Source: Nitrospira sp. KM1 (lineage in GTDB: Bacteria; Nitrospirota; Nitrospiria; Nitrospirales; Nitrospiraceae). Taken from it: a DNA stretch of 64,000 nt. The translations under genes were made by a program, and so were the position numbers. How positions within the stretch are numbered: position 1 is the stretch's first letter; every line of letters begins with the position of its first letter. The notes beneath the pieces were generated by a model that worked only from the letters and a program-made list of their open reading frames with translations, made no database searches and was not told the DNA's origin. Below are positions 3,459 to 41,728 of the stretch, piece by piece. Location of the stretch: contig NZ_AP022671.1 in NCBI RefSeq assembly GCF_011405515.1, positions 434,001 through 498,000 on the forward strand, read 5' to 3'.

Positions 3459-3671
3459 ATGAGCGGCGGCAGCGCGGGGCGTAAAACGGTATCGGTAATG
3501 CGGGGGCTGATGATGCTCTGTGACAGCTGCCATAGCCAGGTGCTGCTCGAACAGCTCGTGGATCACAAGAATTTCGTCATGGATCACGAGGCGCTGTTCG
3601 ATACGATCTGCATGGGTTGCACGGACATCAATCGGCCGCTGATCGATGACATGCTGGGGAGCTCAGAGTAG
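3459..3671 (+). CDS. Small protein with two CxxC motifs, unknown function
   Basis: The 70-residue product holds CDSC and CMGC pairs about 30 residues apart, as expected for a small zinc ribbon or Fe-S site. An internal ATG at 3498 would shorten it to begin just before the first CxxC and remains a possible start. It lies 6 bp after another small Cys protein and likely shares its transcript with the upstream ABC exporter. Function is unknown. Confidence 0.55.
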   Translation: MSGGSAGRKTVSVMRGLMMLCDSCHSQVLLEQLVDHKNFVMDHEALFDTICMGCTDINRPLIDDMLGSSE

Positions 3672-3688
3672 CGGACGGCCCAGGCTGG

Positions 3689-4015
3689 TTATTTACAAGA
3701 CTTCCCGTCGAAATACATACAGGCCGATTCACCCGATTTCACCTTCCACGTCTTAATCAGCGGCGCTTGCCCGTCTCCTCTCATCTCCACGACGAAATCC
3801 ACGAGTCCGGATATCGGTAACTTCTCCAAATGCGGTTTTGCCGCCTCAGGAGCCTCGATGTAAAAGACCGATCCTAGCGTCGATATAAGAATGCGGGACG
3901 CATCCTTCTCGACCAGGATGACCGGGCTGTAAAAGCTCTTGTCTTCCGCATGGACGGGAAAAACACTGGACAACATGAAGAAGACAGCCAGCAATGCCGT
4001 AATGATATAGGACAT
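3689..4015 (-). CDS. Small exported protein, unknown function
   Basis: The 108-residue product begins with a clear Sec signal peptide (hydrophobic residues 3-20, cleavage after PVHA). The mature part is about 85 residues with two Cys near the C-terminus (CMYFDGKSC), which could form a disulfide. An AAGGAG site lies 8-9 bp before the ATG. It follows the JAMM peptidase gene on the same strand after about 95 bp but has no obvious link to sulfur transfer. No family was recognised. Confidence 0.65.
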   Translation of the reverse strand: MSYIITALLAVFFMLSSVFPVHAEDKSFYSPVILVEKDASRILISTLGSVFYIEAPEAAKPHLEKLPISGLVDFVVEMRGDGQAPLIKTWKVKSGESACMYFDGKSCK

Positions 4016-4109
4016 GACGATGACTCCTTCCTAGAGATGAACGGCCCATTATCGCACCCTTGATGAAAGGAAGGAAACTGAAAAACCGGCGGAGAGCAAC
4101 GGGGCCGGA

Positions 4110-4622
4110 TCACCCGGCAATGATGGATGCGAGGGACACGGAGCCTGCCCTGATCCAATACGCACGAATGTCCGGACGAGATTTTTCCATAAGGGATACC
4201 AAGAGGTATATCGGCAGTGTGAGGTTCAGTCGAGCCCAGTTGCCCTCCCAATCATTGGCGATCGTGATATCGGTAATGGATGGACGGGCGGGATCGTGGG
4301 GATGCGAATGATAGACGACCTGCAACGTCAGGCCGTTTTTCCGCATGTCCTTAACGGCTTGAAACATCTCCTGCGCATCCATAATGAACGCGACCTCCGC
4401 CCGTTCGGCAGGAGACAGCTTGGCCAGATGCCGGGTCTTGGCATCGTCGAAGGCTGCTGCATCGCTGGCGCCTTCAAGGCTGACGACGTTCTTGATTCGG
4501 TAGATGTGTGTCACGGTTTGGCCGTGACCGGCGAGAAAGCCGCAGCACTCATACGGATCGAGTTCTCTGGCATGAGCCACGAGTTCATCGAGAATGTGCT
4601 GTGGAATTGTCAGATCCGCCAC
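4110..4622 (-). CDS. JAMM/Mov34-family metallopeptidase (Mec-like)
   Basis: The 170-residue protein carries a full JAMM zinc site: Glu25 in PYECCGF, then His105 and His107 in HSHP, Ser115 and Asp118, matching E..HxHx7SxxD. In Mycobacterium, Mec cleaves cysteine from the CysO-cysteine adduct; in Wolinella a related enzyme (HcyD) trims the carrier HcyS. Here it is the last gene of an operon holding two ubiquitin-like carriers, two E1-like enzymes and PLP enzymes, so either role is possible. The start is GTG with AAAGG upstream. One of the two carriers has a residue after its Gly run, which favours a trimming role. Confidence 0.9.
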   Translation of the reverse strand: MADLTIPQHILDELVAHARELDPYECCGFLAGHGQTVTHIYRIKNVVSLEGASDAAAFDDAKTRHLAKLSPAERAEVAFIMDAQEMFQAVKDMRKNGLTLQVVYHSHPHDPARPSITDITIANDWEGNWARLNLTLPIYLLVSLMEKSRPDIRAYWIRAGSVSLASIIAG

Positions 4623-4713
4623 GATGCCTTTGAATTCGTTTCGCCCCGTGCACAGGATGGCGCCCGAGCCGGCGTGTACCTCTGCCGGCTGTTCACCATG
4701 TCAACCTGGTACA

Positions 4714-5517
4714 TCAAATGGTACAGGCGACCGTGTAGTCGCCTTTCAAGTCCTTGATGGTGGGATGAGGACCGCAGAGTCGGCACGCGGGATCTTTCGG
4801 CCGTCCGACTTTCCGGAATTTCATTTCCAGCGCGTCGTAGATGATCAGCCGATCGGCAATCGTTTCCCCAATTCCCAAAATTTCCTTGATCGCTTCCGAG
4901 GCCTGGAGAATGCCCATCGTTCCTGCCAGCACGCCAAGGACTCCGGCTTCCTGACAGTTGGGCACGAGACCGGCCGGAGGCGGTTCAGGATACAGGCAGC
5001 GATAGCAAGGGTACCCAGCATGGGGTTTGATCGTCGTCAGTTGGCCTTCGAATCTGAACATGCTGGCGGAGATCAACGTTTTCTTGGCGAAGAAACACGC
5101 GTCGTTGACCAGAAACCGGGTGGTGAAATTATCGGACCCATCGAGCACGATGTCAAAATCTCCGACCAAGGAAAGAATGTTGTCTGCATCGACCAACTGA
5201 TGATAGGCCCTCACTGTGACGTCGGGGTTGATGGCGTGTAGCGTTTTCCGGCCCGATTCGACCTTGGGCTGTCCCACCGTGGCGGTTGAGTGAAGAATCT
5301 GCCGCTGCAGATTGGAGAGATCCACGACGTCGTTATCGACCAAACCGATCGTCCCGATTCCCGCAGCAGCGAGATACAACGCTGCAGGAGAGCCGAGGCC
5401 GCCGGCCCCGATCAACAATACCTTCGCCTGGTTGAGCCTGAGTTGCCCCTTGCCGCCCACATCTTGAAGGATGATGTGCCTGCTGTACCGTTGTATTTGT
5501 TCGTCCGTCATTTCCAT
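4714..5517 (-). CDS. moeB: E1-like carrier-protein adenylyltransferase, copy 1 (MoeB/ThiF family)
   Basis: The 267-residue protein has the nucleotide-binding GAGGLGSPAALYLAAAG near residues 35-50, the DxDxVDLSNLQRQ region, a CYRC pair and a CRLCG pair that should hold zinc, as in MoeB and ThiF. It would adenylate the C-terminal Gly of a ThiS/MoaD-like carrier before sulfur transfer. There is no C-terminal rhodanese domain. It ends TVACTI with no extra domain. The ATG at 5517 was chosen over a TTG 9 bp upstream. A paralogue lies in the same operon; the nearest carrier is the MoaD/CysO-like protein. Confidence 0.9.
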   Translation of the reverse strand: MEMTDEQIQRYSRHIILQDVGGKGQLRLNQAKVLLIGAGGLGSPAALYLAAAGIGTIGLVDNDVVDLSNLQRQILHSTATVGQPKVESGRKTLHAINPDVTVRAYHQLVDADNILSLVGDFDIVLDGSDNFTTRFLVNDACFFAKKTLISASMFRFEGQLTTIKPHAGYPCYRCLYPEPPPAGLVPNCQEAGVLGVLAGTMGILQASEAIKEILGIGETIADRLIIYDALEMKFRKVGRPKDPACRLCGPHPTIKDLKGDYTVACTI

Positions 5518-5598
5518 CGTATTCAATCCAATCAGCTACCGTCCGGGCTGAGCCGGACCTATCTTGTTTCGTTCAGAGAAGGACCGAATACTGCCGCG

Positions 5599-5838
5599 TT
5601 ACTCCACAACGTTCAATTCAATCGGATCCACGACGACGCCTCGCTTCCGAAGACCGTCGATGGCACGCTCGATCTCGACCGTATCACCGGTCAGTTCGAG
5701 GTCCATCCACCCCGTGGTCTCTCTGACATCCGCGCGCCGGACGTTCGTCACGATCTTGTAGTCCTTGCCGAGCTCGTAAATCACCGGCTCTTTGATCTTA
5801 TCCTCCGGAAAGCGAATGTGAAAACGCATGTTGGGCAT
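5599..5838 (-). CDS. Stand-alone NIL-domain protein
   Basis: The 79-residue protein has the fold-typical pattern of a NIL domain: an RFHIRFP start strand, PVIYELGKDY, TGWMDLELTGD, then a helix (EIERAIDGLRKRGV) and a terminal strand. NIL domains occur at the C-terminus of MetN and in NIL-ferredoxins linked to homocysteine formation in methanogens and sulfate reducers. It has no Cys in this form. The ATG at 5838 follows the upstream carrier stop by 1 bp and has a GGGAGGG site. The setting suggests a role in methionine or cysteine supply, but this is inference. Confidence 0.8.
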   Translation of the reverse strand: MPNMRFHIRFPEDKIKEPVIYELGKDYKIVTNVRRADVRETTGWMDLELTGDTVEIERAIDGLRKRGVVVDPIELNVVE

Positions 5839-5839
5839 G

Positions 5840-6112
5840 TTACCCTCCCGCGATGGCGGGCACGATGGACACTTCATCCCCATCGCTGAGCGAAGTGTCT
5901 TTGCCCTTCAGGAAGCGAATGTCTTCCTCGTTGACATAGATGTTGACGAAACGCCGGAGTTCGCCGCTCTCATCGCATAAGCGGTCTTTGATCCCCGGAT
6001 GGGCTTGATTCAATGTATCGATCATCCCCGCGATCGTACCGGCTTGAGCCTCGACTTCCCCCTGTCCCTTCGTCAGAGGACGAAGCGGGGTCGGAATACG
6101 TACCTTAATCAT
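5840..6112 (-). CDS. MoaD/CysO-like sulfur carrier protein ending in Gly-Gly
   Basis: The 90-residue beta-grasp protein ends exactly in IAGG, the di-glycine tail that an E1-like enzyme adenylates and converts to a thiocarboxylate. Its form ([14 protein letters not shown] start, [24 protein letters not shown] end) resembles CysO of Mycobacterium. Its ATG overlaps the stop of the threonine-synthase-like gene (ATGA), pointing to coupled translation. Likely partners are the JAMM peptidase and one E1-like enzyme of the operon. A molybdopterin role is less likely, since no other moa gene is near. Confidence 0.9.
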
Positions 6113-35298: not shown

Positions 35299-35376
<78 letters not shown>

Positions 35377-35398: not shown

Positions 35399-37660
35399 TC
35401 ATTCGACTTGAATCGTTACTGTCGCCGCGGCCCAATCGGACCGCTGGTTGGCAGGCATTCCTTGCATCAACGGCATTGGAGGGGCCGAGGCAGGATCGAG
35501 CGAGGACGGTGTCGAGCCTGCTAGGGATGACGGGGAGGCAGCCTGCACCTCCGGCTGACCATCCATCTTCTGGCCAGGCACGTGAGAGGTAGGATCGTAG
35601 ACAGTCAAAAATCCACGCGTGGCGGTATTTTCAAGTTCGCGACGAATCGATGCAATCCCTTCATCGATCGCTCGCGCAGTAATCTTCTTTCCATTGTTTT
35701 TAGCCTGAGGTGTTTGGAGATCCTTGATCTTCTGGCGGATCATCGTTGCCGTTTCCAAATCCGTACTGCTGAACACCCGCACTGTATCGGTCCCTTTTGG
35801 AGGACTATAGTCCCAATAGAACCCCGCTTTGTTATTGGCAGAGAGCGAATCCGGAATCAGGACCCTTTCATTCGCCCGAATCCGTCCATCAGGATGAAAC
35901 TCAGTTCTCGCGTGTGCGTTTGGAAACAGGACGTTTACGCTTCCCTCAGAATCGACATCCACAATCGTCACATACGCGTCGGCATTCACGGTCACTTGCA
36001 GCTGGAGACTGTTCTCCGCAGTTCGCGGCGCACCGTTTGTTCGAATTTTGTATTTGGCCGGCTGCGTGTCGGCGGCGACGACAACGATTCCGCGCGTTCC
36101 AGCTTTCGGGACCGGTTGGGGATTCTCACTGGCGACCCGCATATCGACTTTCAACTGTGAGGACGGATTGTCGAGGGTCAACAGCTCCGAAGCGGTGGTG
36201 GACCTGGAAACAACCAAGGCGACACCCGCACCCCAGTCGTCTCCGCTCCCCCCGAACGACCCCACGAGGCCGAGCCCATCCGCCGTTAACAATTTGACCG
36301 AGTCTCCTTCCACCCCTACCAGATAGCGCGCCGACTGATTTGGACCGACTAGATCCACATTGGGTATGTTCTTCGCGAGCGTGTGTTCGATCTGCCTTCG
36401 TTGTCGCTCCGGCATTTCAAGGATCCGTATCGGAACTCTGCCGCCGGGCGGAGAAGGCGGCAGCAATGGAACAGCTCGAGAACGATCAGGAATAGCCTTG
36501 GACGGAGAGCGCACCTTTGCATAGGCATGCTGCCCGGCTACCTTGATCACAGATGCCACAGCGAGAGCGCCGCCGGGCGCAAAGCCGGAATCGCCGGGAG
36601 GATAGATCGACCAAACGGATCCGGGAGCGGCACCTAGAAGCAGCCCGTTCAACAGTGTCACGGTGCCCTGATCCCCCGGTTGGACCTCAAGCCAGACGAG
36701 CCTGGGAACGCTTGTGGAATGTGTTTCCTGGTGTAGGTCGTTCGCCGTTCCGAGCAATGGCTGTTCAAGCAGATTCACGGGAGCTTCCAGTTGCGGCTCA
36801 GGCATCGATATGCGGCCAAAGTGCGTCTGGATCCTTTGTAGTTCCGTTTCGACGATGCGGAACACAGCGCGGGGGGACGCCCCGGCAGGAGAGGAGGTGA
36901 GGCTTCTGGACAGTGCGTAAGAGAAAAAGCCGTGATACCGGCCGTTCACCGGACCGTCGAGCGCTTCTTGATGGGACGCCGCGCCTGCCATGAGGACATA
37001 TTGAGCCGCCAATGGACGGACTGCTCCTCTGGTCTGGATCTCCGGGTTCCCCGCTCGTTTGTACAAGGCGGTACGCATGTCTTGAGGCACCGACCTCGTG
37101 CGGATGTCGAGAGAGCGAGTGGCAGTTCCTGAATGACAGGAGTCCAGGACGACAAATGCGTGTGGTGTCGTCAATCGGCTCAGAAGCGCTTCCAACTCGT
37201 CGTCGGTAATATCAGGAACCGATCCGGTGCGGCCATCTTGCGGCACCAATGTTTCATCCAGCCTATCGTCGGGTTCGTCGCCATTGAGATCTTCAACCTG
37301 TGAGCCATGCCCCGAATAATGGATATACACGATGTCGTCGGGTCCTGTGTCGTCCACCAACCGCGAGAGGGCAGCCAGCATACCCTCTCTGGTTGCCTGT
37401 TCGTCCGTCAGGGTACGGATGTTCACCTCAGGAAATCCCCATCGCGTCATGAGGACTTGCTTCATCGTTTCGACGTCGTTTAAGGAACCTTGAAGTTTCG
37501 GAACGGCCCGATAGTTATTGATTCCAATGAGCAGCGCCCGCTTGTTACCACTTTTGCCCTGGGCCGGCATGGCCAGCAAATCGATGCGACTGCCAGCCAC
37601 GACACTACTGACGAGCACAAGCACACACATGACGACCTTCCAGGGACGGAGCGTACTCAT
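35399..37660 (-). CDS. Exported caspase-like (peptidase C14) protein with C-terminal DUF4384
   Basis: The 753-residue protein has a signal peptide (about 1-31), a caspase domain (about 38-310) with the catalytic dyad His118 in YSGHG and Cys175 in DSCHSG, a linker, and a DUF4384-like segment near 570-660 (YVTIVDVDSEGSVNVLFPN). Bacterial caspase-like proteases cut after basic residues. It is the third gene of an operon after an ECF sigma factor and its anti-sigma factor, so expression should follow that switch. Its substrate is unknown; self-processing or an envelope-stress role is possible. Confidence 0.9.
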   Translation of the reverse strand: MSTLRPWKVVMCVLVLVSSVVAGSRIDLLAMPAQGKSGNKRALLIGINNYRAVPKLQGSLNDVETMKQVLMTRWGFPEVNIRTLTDEQATREGMLAALSRLVDDTGPDDIVYIHYSGHGSQVEDLNGDEPDDRLDETLVPQDGRTGSVPDITDDELEALLSRLTTPHAFVVLDSCHSGTATRSLDIRTRSVPQDMRTALYKRAGNPEIQTRGAVRPLAAQYVLMAGAASHQEALDGPVNGRYHGFFSYALSRSLTSSPAGASPRAVFRIVETELQRIQTHFGRISMPEPQLEAPVNLLEQPLLGTANDLHQETHSTSVPRLVWLEVQPGDQGTVTLLNGLLLGAAPGSVWSIYPPGDSGFAPGGALAVASVIKVAGQHAYAKVRSPSKAIPDRSRAVPLLPPSPPGGRVPIRILEMPERQRRQIEHTLAKNIPNVDLVGPNQSARYLVGVEGDSVKLLTADGLGLVGSFGGSGDDWGAGVALVVSRSTTASELLTLDNPSSQLKVDMRVASENPQPVPKAGTRGIVVVAADTQPAKYKIRTNGAPRTAENSLQLQVTVNADAYVTIVDVDSEGSVNVLFPNAHARTEFHPDGRIRANERVLIPDSLSANNKAGFYWDYSPPKGTDTVRVFSSTDLETATMIRQKIKDLQTPQAKNNGKKITARAIDEGIASIRRELENTATRGFLTVYDPTSHVPGQKMDGQPEVQAASPSSLAGSTPSSLDPASAPPMPLMQGMPANQRSDWAAATVTIQVE

Positions 37661-37731
37661 CTGGCAGCCTTTCTCGTTGTGGGGCCCATACACAAGAGTC
37701 GAAGATCAGTCGACGCAATCCACGGTCACGT

Positions 37732-38397
37732 TCAGCGTATCAAGAGATCAGCCGAGCGAACCACTTCCTGCTTCCTTCGCAGGACCTCCAGCTTTTGGCG
37801 TGATGCCGATTGGTCGGTCGCGGGCATTTCGATCGTGTATATTCCCTCCGCCGAGGGACCCCCGACGATCCTGCCGCGCACGCCGTCGAGCACCGAACGG
37901 ATTTGCTCGTCCGTCGCATGCGGATGGAAGCTGACGGCGACACTGACGGTCGGACTGCCGACCGACCGGGGCAAGACACGATCCTGCACTGTTGGAACAC
38001 TCATCACCCACGCCAGAATCCCTGCTTGCACAAGTATCACAGCGGCGCTGACGGTCGGCATCCATCGAACATTGAGCATGGACCGAATCCACGCGTCGAG
38101 GATTTCCAGGGACGAACGGCGAGTTCCTTTGACAATGCCCGGTGGAGAGTCCGCCGCAAGGCGTTGGAGCACGGATTGCTCCAACGAAGCAGAGGGAAGA
38201 GGAGCTGTGGAATAGGCGTCATCGAGCAGGCGTTTCATCTTCCGCAACTCCTCTAACTCTGTACGGCAGTCCACACAATGCTCGAGATGGCGCGAAAGCT
38301 CGTTCCGTTCCTGATCGGCAAGCGTATTGTTCGCGTACCAAGGAAGTAACGCGACTTCGGGATGAACTTCGGCCGGAAATGTTTCGGGATCGCTCAT
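37732..38397 (-). CDS. Anti-sigma factor with zinc finger and one membrane helix
   Basis: The 221-residue protein has an N-terminal zinc-binding HxxxCxxC (HLEHCVDC near residue 31), as in ZAS-type anti-sigma factors, a membrane helix near residues 112-132, and a periplasmic C-terminal part of about 90 residues. It would hold the upstream ECF sigma factor until a signal releases it. Its start overlaps the sigma gene stop by 4 bp. The third gene of the operon is the caspase-like protease. Confidence 0.9.
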   Translation of the reverse strand: MSDPETFPAEVHPEVALLPWYANNTLADQERNELSRHLEHCVDCRTELEELRKMKRLLDDAYSTAPLPSASLEQSVLQRLAADSPPGIVKGTRRSSLEILDAWIRSMLNVRWMPTVSAAVILVQAGILAWVMSVPTVQDRVLPRSVGSPTVSVAVSFHPHATDEQIRSVLDGVRGRIVGGPSAEGIYTIEMPATDQSASRQKLEVLRRKQEVVRSADLLIR

Positions 38398-38984
38398 GGG
38401 GTCGGTTCAGTATGTTCCAGTCGTTCAAGTTGCCGCTTCAGTTGTTGCTTGGCGTAAAAGACACGAGTCTTGACGGTGTTCACGGGGATCGACAACAAGC
38501 GGGAAATATCCTCGTAGGGAAGTTCCTCATAAAATGTCAGGCGCAGGACCTCCCGATGTTCAGCGGACAAAGACGCCAGGGCGCGTTGAGTCAACTCGCA
38601 CATCTCCTGACGTTGAGTGCATTCGAGCGGATTATCGCCGGGAGCCGGGAGTTCCATCGCCCCATCAAGATCCACTTCACGTCCCTGGCGCTTTGTTCGT
38701 CTCATTGCATCGAGTGCTTTATGCCGAGCGATGCCGAAAATCCAGGTCGACAACCTGGAGGAACCGCTATACGTGGACGCGCTGCGCCAGACGGCTATCA
38801 TGGTGTCGCCGACAATTTCCTCCGCCAGCACGGAATCACCGACTAAGCTCCTGACATATTGAAAGACGCGTTTTTCATACGTGCGGTAGAGACGTGCGAA
38901 TGCCGGCTCGTCACCGGTTGCCACCGCACTCATGAGATCATGCTCATCCAAGGCATCATGGGGGTGGGTCGGATTCATGAACAT
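38394..38984 (-). CDS. ECF RNA polymerase sigma factor
   Basis: The 196-residue protein has region 2 (FARLYRTYEKRVFQYVRSLVGD, EEIVGDTMIAVWRSASTY) and region 4 (LSAEHREVLRLTFYEELPYEDISRLLSIPVNTVKTRVFYAKQQL). It is followed by an overlapping anti-sigma gene and a caspase-like gene. The divergent DUF4384 protein may also be a target, but its predicted promoter is sigma-70-like. Autoregulation is common in the family; no clear ECF promoter was found by eye. Confidence 0.95.
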   Translation of the reverse strand: MFMNPTHPHDALDEHDLMSAVATGDEPAFARLYRTYEKRVFQYVRSLVGDSVLAEEIVGDTMIAVWRSASTYSGSSRLSTWIFGIARHKALDAMRRTKRQGREVDLDGAMELPAPGDNPLECTQRQEMCELTQRALASLSAEHREVLRLTFYEELPYEDISRLLSIPVNTVKTRVFYAKQQLKRQLERLEHTEPTP

Positions 38985-39072
38985 ACGGGTTCACGGTCGT
39001 TGCGGGAGTTGAAAGCGCTGTTGCTCTAGCACATTTGGTCATCCCCCTCAATAGGATGGATGGACGGATTGA

Positions 39073-39154: not shown

Positions 39155-40834
39155 GTGAGACACAGCCCCGGAATGGATGCCTCACACGGAGGCACGCGTG
39201 CTCTGAGCTTCGTATTGGTGAGCACCCTCCTGTTCGGCTCCTGTGCGGCAGCACCGTTCCTGCTGCCGATCGCCTTCGAGTTTGCGAGAAATCTCTTCCA
39301 AACCGGTCTGCAAAATTACGGGTCCAAGCATCGGGATAATCTTAGCAACTTGGTGAACCGCCTGGCGAATCCTTATATCCAGGGTCTCCCGCCGATGGCC
39401 GTCGCTCCAGGTTATCCCGGGCAACCCGTCCCTGGACAAGCGGGAGTTCCTATTCAACCGGCTTATCAAGCCCAGCCGGGGACACTCGCGCAATTCCCGC
39501 CAGGTACACAGGTGTTTTCTCCCCAAACTGCTCCCATCGATCCCAATAACCCTTCCACCAACCCGGTCACCGTCTATCCGGGAAATACCGCACCTCAAGG
39601 ATATGCTCCCCAGGCAAATCCCTACGGGCAGGTCTCGGGATATATGCCTCAACCGGGTTCCAGTCCATATGATCCGAACAATCCTTACGGCACCGCCTCC
39701 ACAGCCTATCCAGGCACATCAACGTATCCCGGAACCGTGCCCCCAGGCAGTTCGTACGCGCAACAGGGGATGACTCCTTACGGGTCGACCGCTCCATACG
39801 GAACAATTCAGCAGATGCCGTACGGCGGACAACCTCCAAATCCTTACGGAACTCCTGGCACGGCTCCCACGATGCCTCCCTATGGGTCAACTTCTTATGC
39901 CAATCCCTATCAACAGGTGCCACCGAATCCGTACGGATCGCAAAGTCCTTACGCGGGTTCGGGCTACCCTCCGCAGCAAATGCAGCCTGGGTACGATCCG
40001 AACGTGTCTTACGGCGGAGGCGGAGCCCCTGTGCAAAGTTACGGTCAGCCACAGCCAGGGTATGGGCAGCAGCCCCAAATGAACTATAGCCAGCCACAAG
40101 GAGCGTATGGTGCCGCGCCTTCCTACGGCGGCCAACCGCCGGTTCAACAACAATACGGAGGAGGCGTTGCTCCCGGCCAGCCCTACATGGCACAGCCCTA
40201 CGGTAGTCAACAGTACGCACCGCCCATTTACTCCAGATCGGTCGATACCGACCTCGTGGCAGTGGATGTCGCGTTGATCCGTCAAAACCTGACCGCGCAC
40301 GGAAAGGAAATCGTTTTGATGAATGACGGCGACGTGCTGCGTGACGGCGGCGCCAATGCTCAGGCTGGAGACCGGTTCAAACTGGTGATTCGGACGAATT
40401 GCGACTGCTACCTCTATATCATGTCGATTGACGGATCCGGATGGGCGGAAGCCGTGTATCCTCGAAACGGTCTGTCGACGGTCAATCCAGTGAAGAAGGA
40501 TCTGGAGTATGCCTTCCCGGACGGACCCTACTGGTTCAGCCTCGATCAGGTGAAAGGCATCGAAACATTTTTTGTGGTTGCCTCGCTCAATCGACGCACC
40601 GATCTGGAGGAGAGTTTTGCTCAGATTGCGAGTGAAACCCGTCCATCCGGCACGATCGTGGCAAAAGTTGAAGAACCGCCCGTGATTCCTCGCGGTGTCG
40701 GATCGGCGACTCCCCGCGGCATCATCACCGTAAAGGACGAGAGCGGAGACAGCGCGAAGCTGACTCCGTTGTCGTACGCTGCAAGCCAGACGGGACAGGA
40801 TGTGACCGTCACGCGCTGGTTCAAACACGAGTAG
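39155..40834 (+). CDS. Tyr/Pro/Gln-rich DUF4384 exported protein, possible lipoprotein
   Basis: The 559-residue protein starts at a GTG with AAGGAG 5 bp upstream. It has a signal segment ending in a weak lipobox (LFGSC near residue 30), a long low-complexity stretch (about 75-355) of Pro-Tyr-Gly, Gln and Asn units, and a DUF4384 domain near 365-490 (DRFKLVIRTNCDCYLYIMSIDGSGW). DUF4384 is also in the caspase-like protein encoded by the divergent operon. The repeat part is probably disordered and could bridge envelope layers. Function is unknown. Confidence 0.8.
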   Translation: MRHSPGMDASHGGTRALSFVLVSTLLFGSCAAAPFLLPIAFEFARNLFQTGLQNYGSKHRDNLSNLVNRLANPYIQGLPPMAVAPGYPGQPVPGQAGVPIQPAYQAQPGTLAQFPPGTQVFSPQTAPIDPNNPSTNPVTVYPGNTAPQGYAPQANPYGQVSGYMPQPGSSPYDPNNPYGTASTAYPGTSTYPGTVPPGSSYAQQGMTPYGSTAPYGTIQQMPYGGQPPNPYGTPGTAPTMPPYGSTSYANPYQQVPPNPYGSQSPYAGSGYPPQQMQPGYDPNVSYGGGGAPVQSYGQPQPGYGQQPQMNYSQPQGAYGAAPSYGGQPPVQQQYGGGVAPGQPYMAQPYGSQQYAPPIYSRSVDTDLVAVDVALIRQNLTAHGKEIVLMNDGDVLRDGGANAQAGDRFKLVIRTNCDCYLYIMSIDGSGWAEAVYPRNGLSTVNPVKKDLEYAFPDGPYWFSLDQVKGIETFFVVASLNRRTDLEESFAQIASETRPSGTIVAKVEEPPVIPRGVGSATPRGIITVKDESGDSAKLTPLSYAASQTGQDVTVTRWFKHE

Positions 40835-40846
40835 GGGACGTATGCG

Positions 40847-41728
40847 ATGAGGTTGCAAAATGCACTCTGTGTGTTGATCACAGGCATCGTGGTGGGTATG
40901 TGGTCAGCAACCACCGTTTCGGCCCAGGTCTTTCCACCACGTCCGACGCAGCCTCCAACGCCGCCGGTTCAACAATCCCCGGCGGCCATCGTACCGCAGC
41001 AGGGAAACCAGCCGCCGTCGATCACGAAGACCATTCCGTTCATCGCCGTTCTCGGCGACCCGACAAAATCTTTCATTCAGCTCGCCAATATGTCGAGCCC
41101 GTTCGATACGAATTTCATGCTGGGACGCGGGCTCACCGGGCGGATTCAATTGGAGAAATATTCCTATCAATCCGGCAACGGACAGAAGTCGTTCGTTCAT
41201 GTGACCGGCGTGTCCAATCCACCGCTCGTGAGCAGCGAGGGTAATGAGCTGAGACTGCAGTTCTACTTTCCCATCATCCAGTTCAAGACGTACTACAAGG
41301 ACTACTCGGGCGAGGGAGACAGTGCTCTTGCCGATCTCGTCGCTGAAAAAACGATGGTCGATGTCTTCATTTCACCCACGATCGATCAACGACGGCTTCC
41401 CACCTATCACTCGGTACGTGTGGCCGTGACCGGCATGGTCAAGGAACCGGAGAAATGCACCTATTTCTTCGACATGATCTTTCCCGTCAACATTTGTAAG
41501 ATCGCGGCCGATTATTTCAAACAGATCCAGCCCGCGCTCGAGAACGGGATGCGCGAGATCCTCCTTCAGCCGCAGACGCGAATGCAATTCGAACAGCAGG
41601 TTTTTCAGTTCGTCAGGGCCGATCTGTTGTCAAAGGCCGGTATCAATCCGGTCAGTCCTGTTCAGATCGAGATCGTCCAATCCAGCCTCCAGGGGACCGA
41701 CTACCTGGTGACCTACATGCCGCGTTGA
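40847..41728 (+). CDS. Exported protein, unknown function, downstream of the DUF4384 protein
   Basis: The 293-residue product has a signal peptide (cleavage after VSAQ near 27), a Pro/Gln-rich linker to about 58, and a globular part with two Cys (KCTYFFDMIFPVNICK). No family was recognised. It starts 12 bp after the DUF4384 gene stop, so the two probably form an operon. It may act with that protein in the envelope. Confidence 0.7.
   Translation: MRLQNALCVLITGIVVGMWSATTVSAQVFPPRPTQPPTPPVQQSPAAIVPQQGNQPPSITKTIPFIAVLGDPTKSFIQLANMSSPFDTNFMLGRGLTGRIQLEKYSYQSGNGQKSFVHVTGVSNPPLVSSEGNELRLQFYFPIIQFKTYYKDYSGEGDSALADLVAEKTMVDVFISPTIDQRRLPTYHSVRVAVTGMVKEPEKCTYFFDMIFPVNICKIAADYFKQIQPALENGMREILLQPQTRMQFEQQVFQFVRADLLSKAGINPVSPVQIEIVQSSLQGTDYLVTYMPR

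Follow-up and report, generated by a model that had tools for sequence, protein, structure and literature searches.

Analysis of a 64,000-nucleotide stretch of the Nitrospira sp. KM1 genome (hereafter the window) revealed a module composed of an ECF sigma factor, a membrane zinc-finger anti-sigma factor, an exported C14 caspase with DUF4384 and a DUF4384 lipoprotein, which is conserved, in two mirror-image arrangements, across approximately 30 loci of the Nitrospirales. A recurring ECF-type motif, TGAACC-N16/17-GACNNAC, occurs at three fixed places within it (P1, P2 and P3), and the linker of the caspase-associated anti-sigma factors carries an arginine, Arg144. We posit that these genes may form a self-contained envelope switch, in which the sigma factor drives the caspase and DUF4384 genes and the caspase cuts the anti-sigma factor. 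We give this combined statement close to, but short of, even credence, because its core stands without the cleavage step: control of the caspase and DUF4384 genes by the sigma factor is likely, and cleavage of the anti-sigma factor by the caspase, taken by itself, is rather doubtful.

A sigma/anti-sigma/caspase module conserved in Nitrospirales

The sigma factor contains only sigma regions 2 and 4, and is adjoined by a zinc-finger anti-sigma factor with a transmembrane (TM) helix, assigned from an AF2 model together with the sequence, and an extracytoplasmic domain, which places it among ECF sigma factors. A preliminary description of this DNA had presented the sigma, anti-sigma and caspase genes as an operon of three neighbouring genes with overlaps; open reading frames and Pfam domains confirm the adjacency and show all three to be real, but the overlap applies to the sigma and anti-sigma genes only, which share 4 bp (ATGA), and a gap of 71 bp likely precedes the caspase gene. 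The three-gene set had also overlooked two members of the module, the divergent DUF4384 lipoprotein and the downstream p293, for which no Pfam family was found among the listed matches (E up to 1). A tRNA-Pro gene (35299-35375, + strand) is convergent with the caspase gene and ends 24 bp from its stop (35399).

Features of the module in the window (positions are those of the 64,000-nucleotide stretch)
Feature	Position	Strand	Remarks
ECF sigma factor, coding sequence	38394..38978 (ORF listed to 38984)	-	Sigma70_r2 and r4; conserved ATG position
Anti-sigma factor	37732..38397	-	cytoplasmic zf-HC2, one predicted TM helix, periplasmic beta-alpha-beta-beta-alpha-beta domain
Anti-sigma folded periplasmic domain (residues 150-218)	37744..37950	-	ferredoxin-like; AF2, VIA-align
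Invariant Arg144 codon	37966..37968	-	variable periplasmic linker; candidate caspase cleavage site
Exported caspase-like protease (predicted)	35399..37660 (ORF listed to 37693)	-	Peptidase_C14 and DUF4384
Caspase C14 domain	about 36800-37543	-	
Caspase DUF4384 domain	about 35762-36013	-	
Caspase His118 codon	37307-37309	-	
Caspase Cys175 codon	37136-37138	-	
Divergent DUF4384 lipoprotein-like protein	39155..40834	+	lipobox-like ...LLFGSC; DUF4384 1.7e-11; conserved divergent neighbour
p293	40847..41728	+	exported protein without Pfam family, downstream of the DUF4384 gene
P1	39106..39134	+	TGAACCTT-N14-GACGTAC, ECF-type promoter motif directed at the divergent DUF4384 operon
P2	37705..37734	-	degenerate TGAACG-N17-GACTGAT facing the caspase; begins with the anti-sigma stop codon TGA
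P3	38964..38993	-	TGAACC-N17-GACCCAC across the start codon of sigma; codons 3-5 form its second half
Sigma70-like block (CTATTGAGGGG...TGCTAGAGCA)	39022..39056	-	upstream of sigma/anti-sigma; visible conservation across the family's loci

Conservation was assessed within the Nitrospirota by searching 295 genomes of the phylum with the caspase, and further loci came from searching contigs and from a profile of the anti-sigma factor run across the order. The caspase search returned 12 long matches (the window's own included) besides many partial ones. Matches on plasmids cover part of the protein only. A sigma/anti-sigma pair adjoins every full-length caspase ortholog with sufficient flanking sequence, and across the approximately 30 loci read the association of the three genes is kept wherever the contig is long enough. 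Gene order differs between families: in that of the window, sigma, anti-sigma and caspase genes follow one another and the DUF4384 and p293 genes are divergent, while in a sister family the caspase is the divergent gene and DUF4384 genes come after the anti-sigma gene. A distant locus, L046 (NPIRA02), combines a divergent caspase that lacks DUF4384 with a CHAT/TPR gene (3566-6106, - strand) right after the anti-sigma gene. The chromosome holds six C14 loci, and the regions retrieved around the other five contain no match to the module's sigma factor.

The caspase is a predicted exported metacaspase-like protease

The caspase scores well above the curated Pfam cut-off for Peptidase_C14 (1.4e-25; 90.8 bits versus 21.4), carries DUF4384 (9.3e-16), and matches metacaspases by phmmer, down to E 1.7e-23. 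Both catalytic residues named in the preliminary description hold up: His118 lies in YSGHGSQ and Cys175 in DSCHSG, and an alignment shows them invariant in 17/17 orthologs. The signal peptide that it had reported also agrees with the same alignment, in which the N-termini look signal-peptide-like when judged by eye, and the protein is presumably active and exported. Residues are numbered on the 753-aa protein from ATG 37660. This is most likely the start, 71 bp past the anti-sigma stop, and is preferred because a Shine-Dalgarno-like AAAGG lies upstream, the position fits the ortholog starts and it reproduces the residue numbers given earlier; translation probably does not begin at the listed GTG (37693).

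C14B proteases, the metacaspase family, cut after basic residues, and DUF4384 is already known in caspase-homolog proteins (PMC6426788). From this family property the caspase is predicted to cut after Arg or Lys. An AF2 model of the full protein built with 17 sequences was too poor for a fold search (pLDDT 56).

A repeated motif faces the caspase and DUF4384 genes

Reading the regions upstream of sigma side by side revealed that the form TGAACCTT-N14/15-GACNKAC (P1) faces the divergent gene, regardless of its identity, in almost all loci; it is present in 24/25 loci, the remaining one having no clear P1. P2 lies where the anti-sigma gene ends, its TGA usually serving as the stop codon, and faces the gene that follows; a relaxed match finds it in 21 of the 25 loci, with no P2 match in the other four. 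The caspase and DUF4384 genes are interchangeable at these two positions, such that the motif faces the caspase at P2 in Nitrospira and at P1 in the sister family. These counts, like those for P3 below, include several loci outside the training set of the scoring matrix.

In the window, P1 scores 23.6 bits with a matrix trained without the window, by far the best match in the 64 kb, and its exact pattern is expected 0.05 times by chance. P2 scores only 8.6 bits there, a level reached about a dozen times in 64 kb; it is degenerate and counts through its position only. More broadly, the motif matches 79 times in 881 kb of strand, versus 1-5 times in codon-block shuffles. The strict motif was found in all eight genomes of the family with the module (1-5 each) and in none of the nine without it, against 0-1 for a reversed-pattern control; the comparison is uninformative in three genomes of the sister family. 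We infer from this distribution that the repeated motif is the promoter of the module's sigma factor.

Control of the caspase by the sigma factor, as first proposed, is supported, though on other grounds than simple operon logic: across the order the motif precedes the caspase and the gene association is kept. Since P2 is such a weak match in the window, expression of the caspase there may depend on read-through from the sigma and anti-sigma genes. Neither a sigma-independent caspase promoter nor a lack of conserved association was found. The weakness of the window's P2, and a conserved sigma70-like block upstream of sigma that we infer from sequence to be a promoter, would also agree with the caspase being a passenger that merely lies downstream of the pair and is read from that block. 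We consider this the least probable of the readings weighed here, as the association persists across two families and two layouts and most relatives have the motif at the caspase.

Further motif sites lie before exported-looking proteins

The wider regulon was sought by pattern matching. Many of the extra motif sites lie no more than about 70 nt from genes whose products look exported, with signal peptides judged by eye, which together with the signal peptides of the module fits an envelope role. In relatives, the ORFs downstream of such sites include a DsbA-like thioredoxin; the DsbA-like homolog in this genome has no motif in the 300 bases before its gene. Here a relaxed pattern matched seven times. 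P1 and P3 account for two of these matches, and a third (contig positions 172682-172711, - strand) precedes by 35 nt the gene for an exported-looking protein of 149 aa, which may also belong to the regulon; the remaining matches look like chance. Elsewhere, the members of a family of small exported-looking proteins ending in CPIPPIP...QEPHP each start 13-43 nt after a motif (L077, L078, L084 and L087). Close copies on opposite strands occur near other genes at L053 (1247(-)/1303(+)), L054 (1227(-)/1287(+)) and L052 (1993(-)/2027(+)), and one of the pair at L053 faces a second, shorter caspase.

A role in regulated cell death, with the caspase as an executioner freed by envelope stress that kills the cell or its neighbours, would draw on the caspase fold and on the reported links of prokaryotic caspases to cell death and possible fratricide (PMC3501461). 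The signal peptide, however, places this caspase outside the cytoplasm, the locus shows no accompanying toxin, pore or immunity protein, a defence-library search with the caspase matched only the generic caspase domain, and the other motif-linked genes look like envelope proteins. We therefore regard this role as very improbable.

P3 spans the sigma start codon

All 25 loci carry P3, always equally far from the sigma start. Across the 24 that have an ATG there, codon 3 always ends in G and codon 5 in AC, while the third base of codon 4 varies, as does the residue encoded by codon 5 (His, Asn, Asp or Tyr). Background usage in these genes is about one third G at four-fold sites and C in less than half of His/Asn/Tyr/Asp codons. 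Wobble bases thus stay fixed despite a varying residue, which points to constraint on P3 at the DNA level. Nearly all loci have no Shine-Dalgarno sequence before the sigma ATG, and no conserved in-frame start was found downstream of it. We also considered P3 as an ordinary autoregulatory promoter. This fits two loci, L137 and L138, where a P3-like copy sits upstream of the sigma start in the usual promoter position, but in the other 25 transcription would begin inside the sigma gene, and the idea was set aside. Because transcription started from P3 would miss the sigma start, P3 may instead be a brake or the source of a sigma-less transcript.

An invariant arginine in the linker of caspase-associated anti-sigma factors

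The AF2 model of the anti-sigma factor consists of cytoplasmic helices, a TM helix at residues 113-133, a low-confidence linker (pLDDT below 50 at residues 134-146) and a confident domain at residues 150-218 (mostly above 90). Within the variable linker, Arg144 is invariant in 28/28 caspase-linked anti-sigma factors; the next residue is Ser, Gly or Ala in every case, and the one after it Ile, Val or Leu. The arginine is missing from 9/9 paralogs with no caspase found in their neighbourhood, a contrast that represents few independent events, as eight of these controls belong to a single group whose linker is shorter, and an internal stop interrupts the gene of the ninth. The eight (L146, L147 and L149-L154) are paralogous sigma/anti-sigma pairs that have no linker arginine and no nearby caspase. 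The invariant arginine suggests that the caspase may cut the anti-sigma factor and so turn the switch on; it could instead serve folding or another protease.

The cytoplasmic part of the anti-sigma factor matches RsiW, ChrR and RslA chains, and zf-HC2 is the sole Pfam family found in all 15 anti-sigma factors, the periplasmic domain having none. Foldseek with the anti-sigma model gave no match below 0.001. VIA-align matched the periplasmic domain to several ferredoxin-like folds at Z of about 8. The subtilisin propeptide (I9; 2z58_B) is among them (Z 8.0, 2.1 A over 62 residues), but it is tied with NapD, Lrp/AsnC and ACT domains, which leaves a protease-inhibitor reading of the domain level with these other ferredoxin-like folds.

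The caspase and DUF4384 proteins might be effectors only, that is, outputs of an envelope-stress regulon in which the caspase processes or breaks down proteins of the surface and periplasm and a DegS-like enzyme acts as site-1 protease. The motif upstream of both genes and the many extra sites before exported-looking proteins agree with this, and DegS-type site-1 proteolysis is the standard arrangement (PMC10028731). We treat it as a serious but tentative possibility, as it leaves unexplained an invariant arginine in a variable linker that is confined to caspase-linked anti-sigma factors.

A self-amplifying envelope switch would account for that residue. In such a switch, the single-pass anti-sigma factor would hold the ECF sigma factor at the membrane. 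The caspase would act in the periplasm or at the surface, predicted to be the same compartment as the anti-sigma linker, and its likeliest key substrate would be the anti-sigma factor. Upon a presumed trigger, a cut at Arg144, between the membrane and the folded domain, would serve as site-1 cleavage in regulated intramembrane proteolysis, after which the customary later cuts in the membrane and cytoplasm would release the sigma factor. Once the anti-sigma factor is destroyed, sigma-RNA polymerase would use the motif copies of the locus, P1 for the DUF4384 lipoprotein operon and P2 for the exported caspase (the two genes being swapped in the sister family), and these promoters would amplify the response. 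In its strictest form, with the caspase as dedicated site-1 protease of its own anti-sigma factor, freed sigma yielding more caspase and P3 as a built-in brake, we judge the model unlikely.

Relation to known systems

Calling the arrangement non-standard, as the preliminary description had done, goes too far, since a 2012 paper (PMC3501461) described sigma-70/metacaspase operons in Myxococcus, Anaeromyxobacter, Haliangium, Sorangium, Ralstonia and Fibrobacter. These likewise place a sigma factor and a metacaspase in one predicted operon; the published description, by which we set them apart, includes no anti-sigma factor, DUF4384, promoter motif or export. In the CRISPR setting, Csx29 cleaves the sigma inhibitor Csx30, and the locus holds three CASP-sigma motifs (PMC10028731). 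The CASP system thus resembles the module in having a caspase-like protease beside an ECF sigma factor and its inhibitor, and sigma motifs in its own locus, but Csx29 is a TPR-CHAT protein, whereas the caspase described here is C14 and predicted to be exported, and its anti-sigma factor is a membrane protein. Nor does the locus show the CASP signature of a CHAT protease with Cas7-11 and Csx30: the scanned neighbours in the window are not Cas proteins, and no CRISPR genes were noticed around the module loci.

RseA/RsiW-type anti-sigma factors with sigmaE/sigmaW, activated by regulated proteolysis, share with the module an ECF sigma factor, a single-pass anti-sigma factor with a cytoplasmic zinc-finger/helical domain and a presumed periplasmic site-1 cut; they differ in that the candidate site-1 protease here is a caspase of the same unit and the periplasmic domain is ferredoxin-like. 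ECF54 sigma factors also have caspase-like genes nearby (CHAT, subtilase or carboxypeptidase neighbours, with proteolytic control proposed; PMC8999054) but are discussed as working without an anti-sigma factor. Literature searches returned nothing beyond one unrelated match for DUF4384 with sigma factors, and nothing for 'PCaspase'. Relative to searches within the Nitrospirota, the joining of an exported caspase to a membrane anti-sigma factor, the recurrence of one motif before interchangeable genes and the arginine of the linker appear to be new.

For most bacterial caspases, substrates and functions are unknown. Here a candidate substrate, one residue in it (Arg144) and defined promoters can be named, and the function of a non-CRISPR bacterial caspase therefore becomes directly testable. 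If the proposed switch is correct, it would be a second case beside Csx29/Csx30 of a caspase-like protease controlling transcription by cutting a sigma inhibitor, in this instance outside the cytoplasm, and a self-amplifying periplasmic caspase switch outside CRISPR. Among solved structures, the N-terminus of a 991-aa CHAT protein (PDB 8rot_B) matches the anti-sigma zinc-finger region (E 0.0057), and this protein may represent the fusion of an anti-sigma-like domain with a caspase-like protease.
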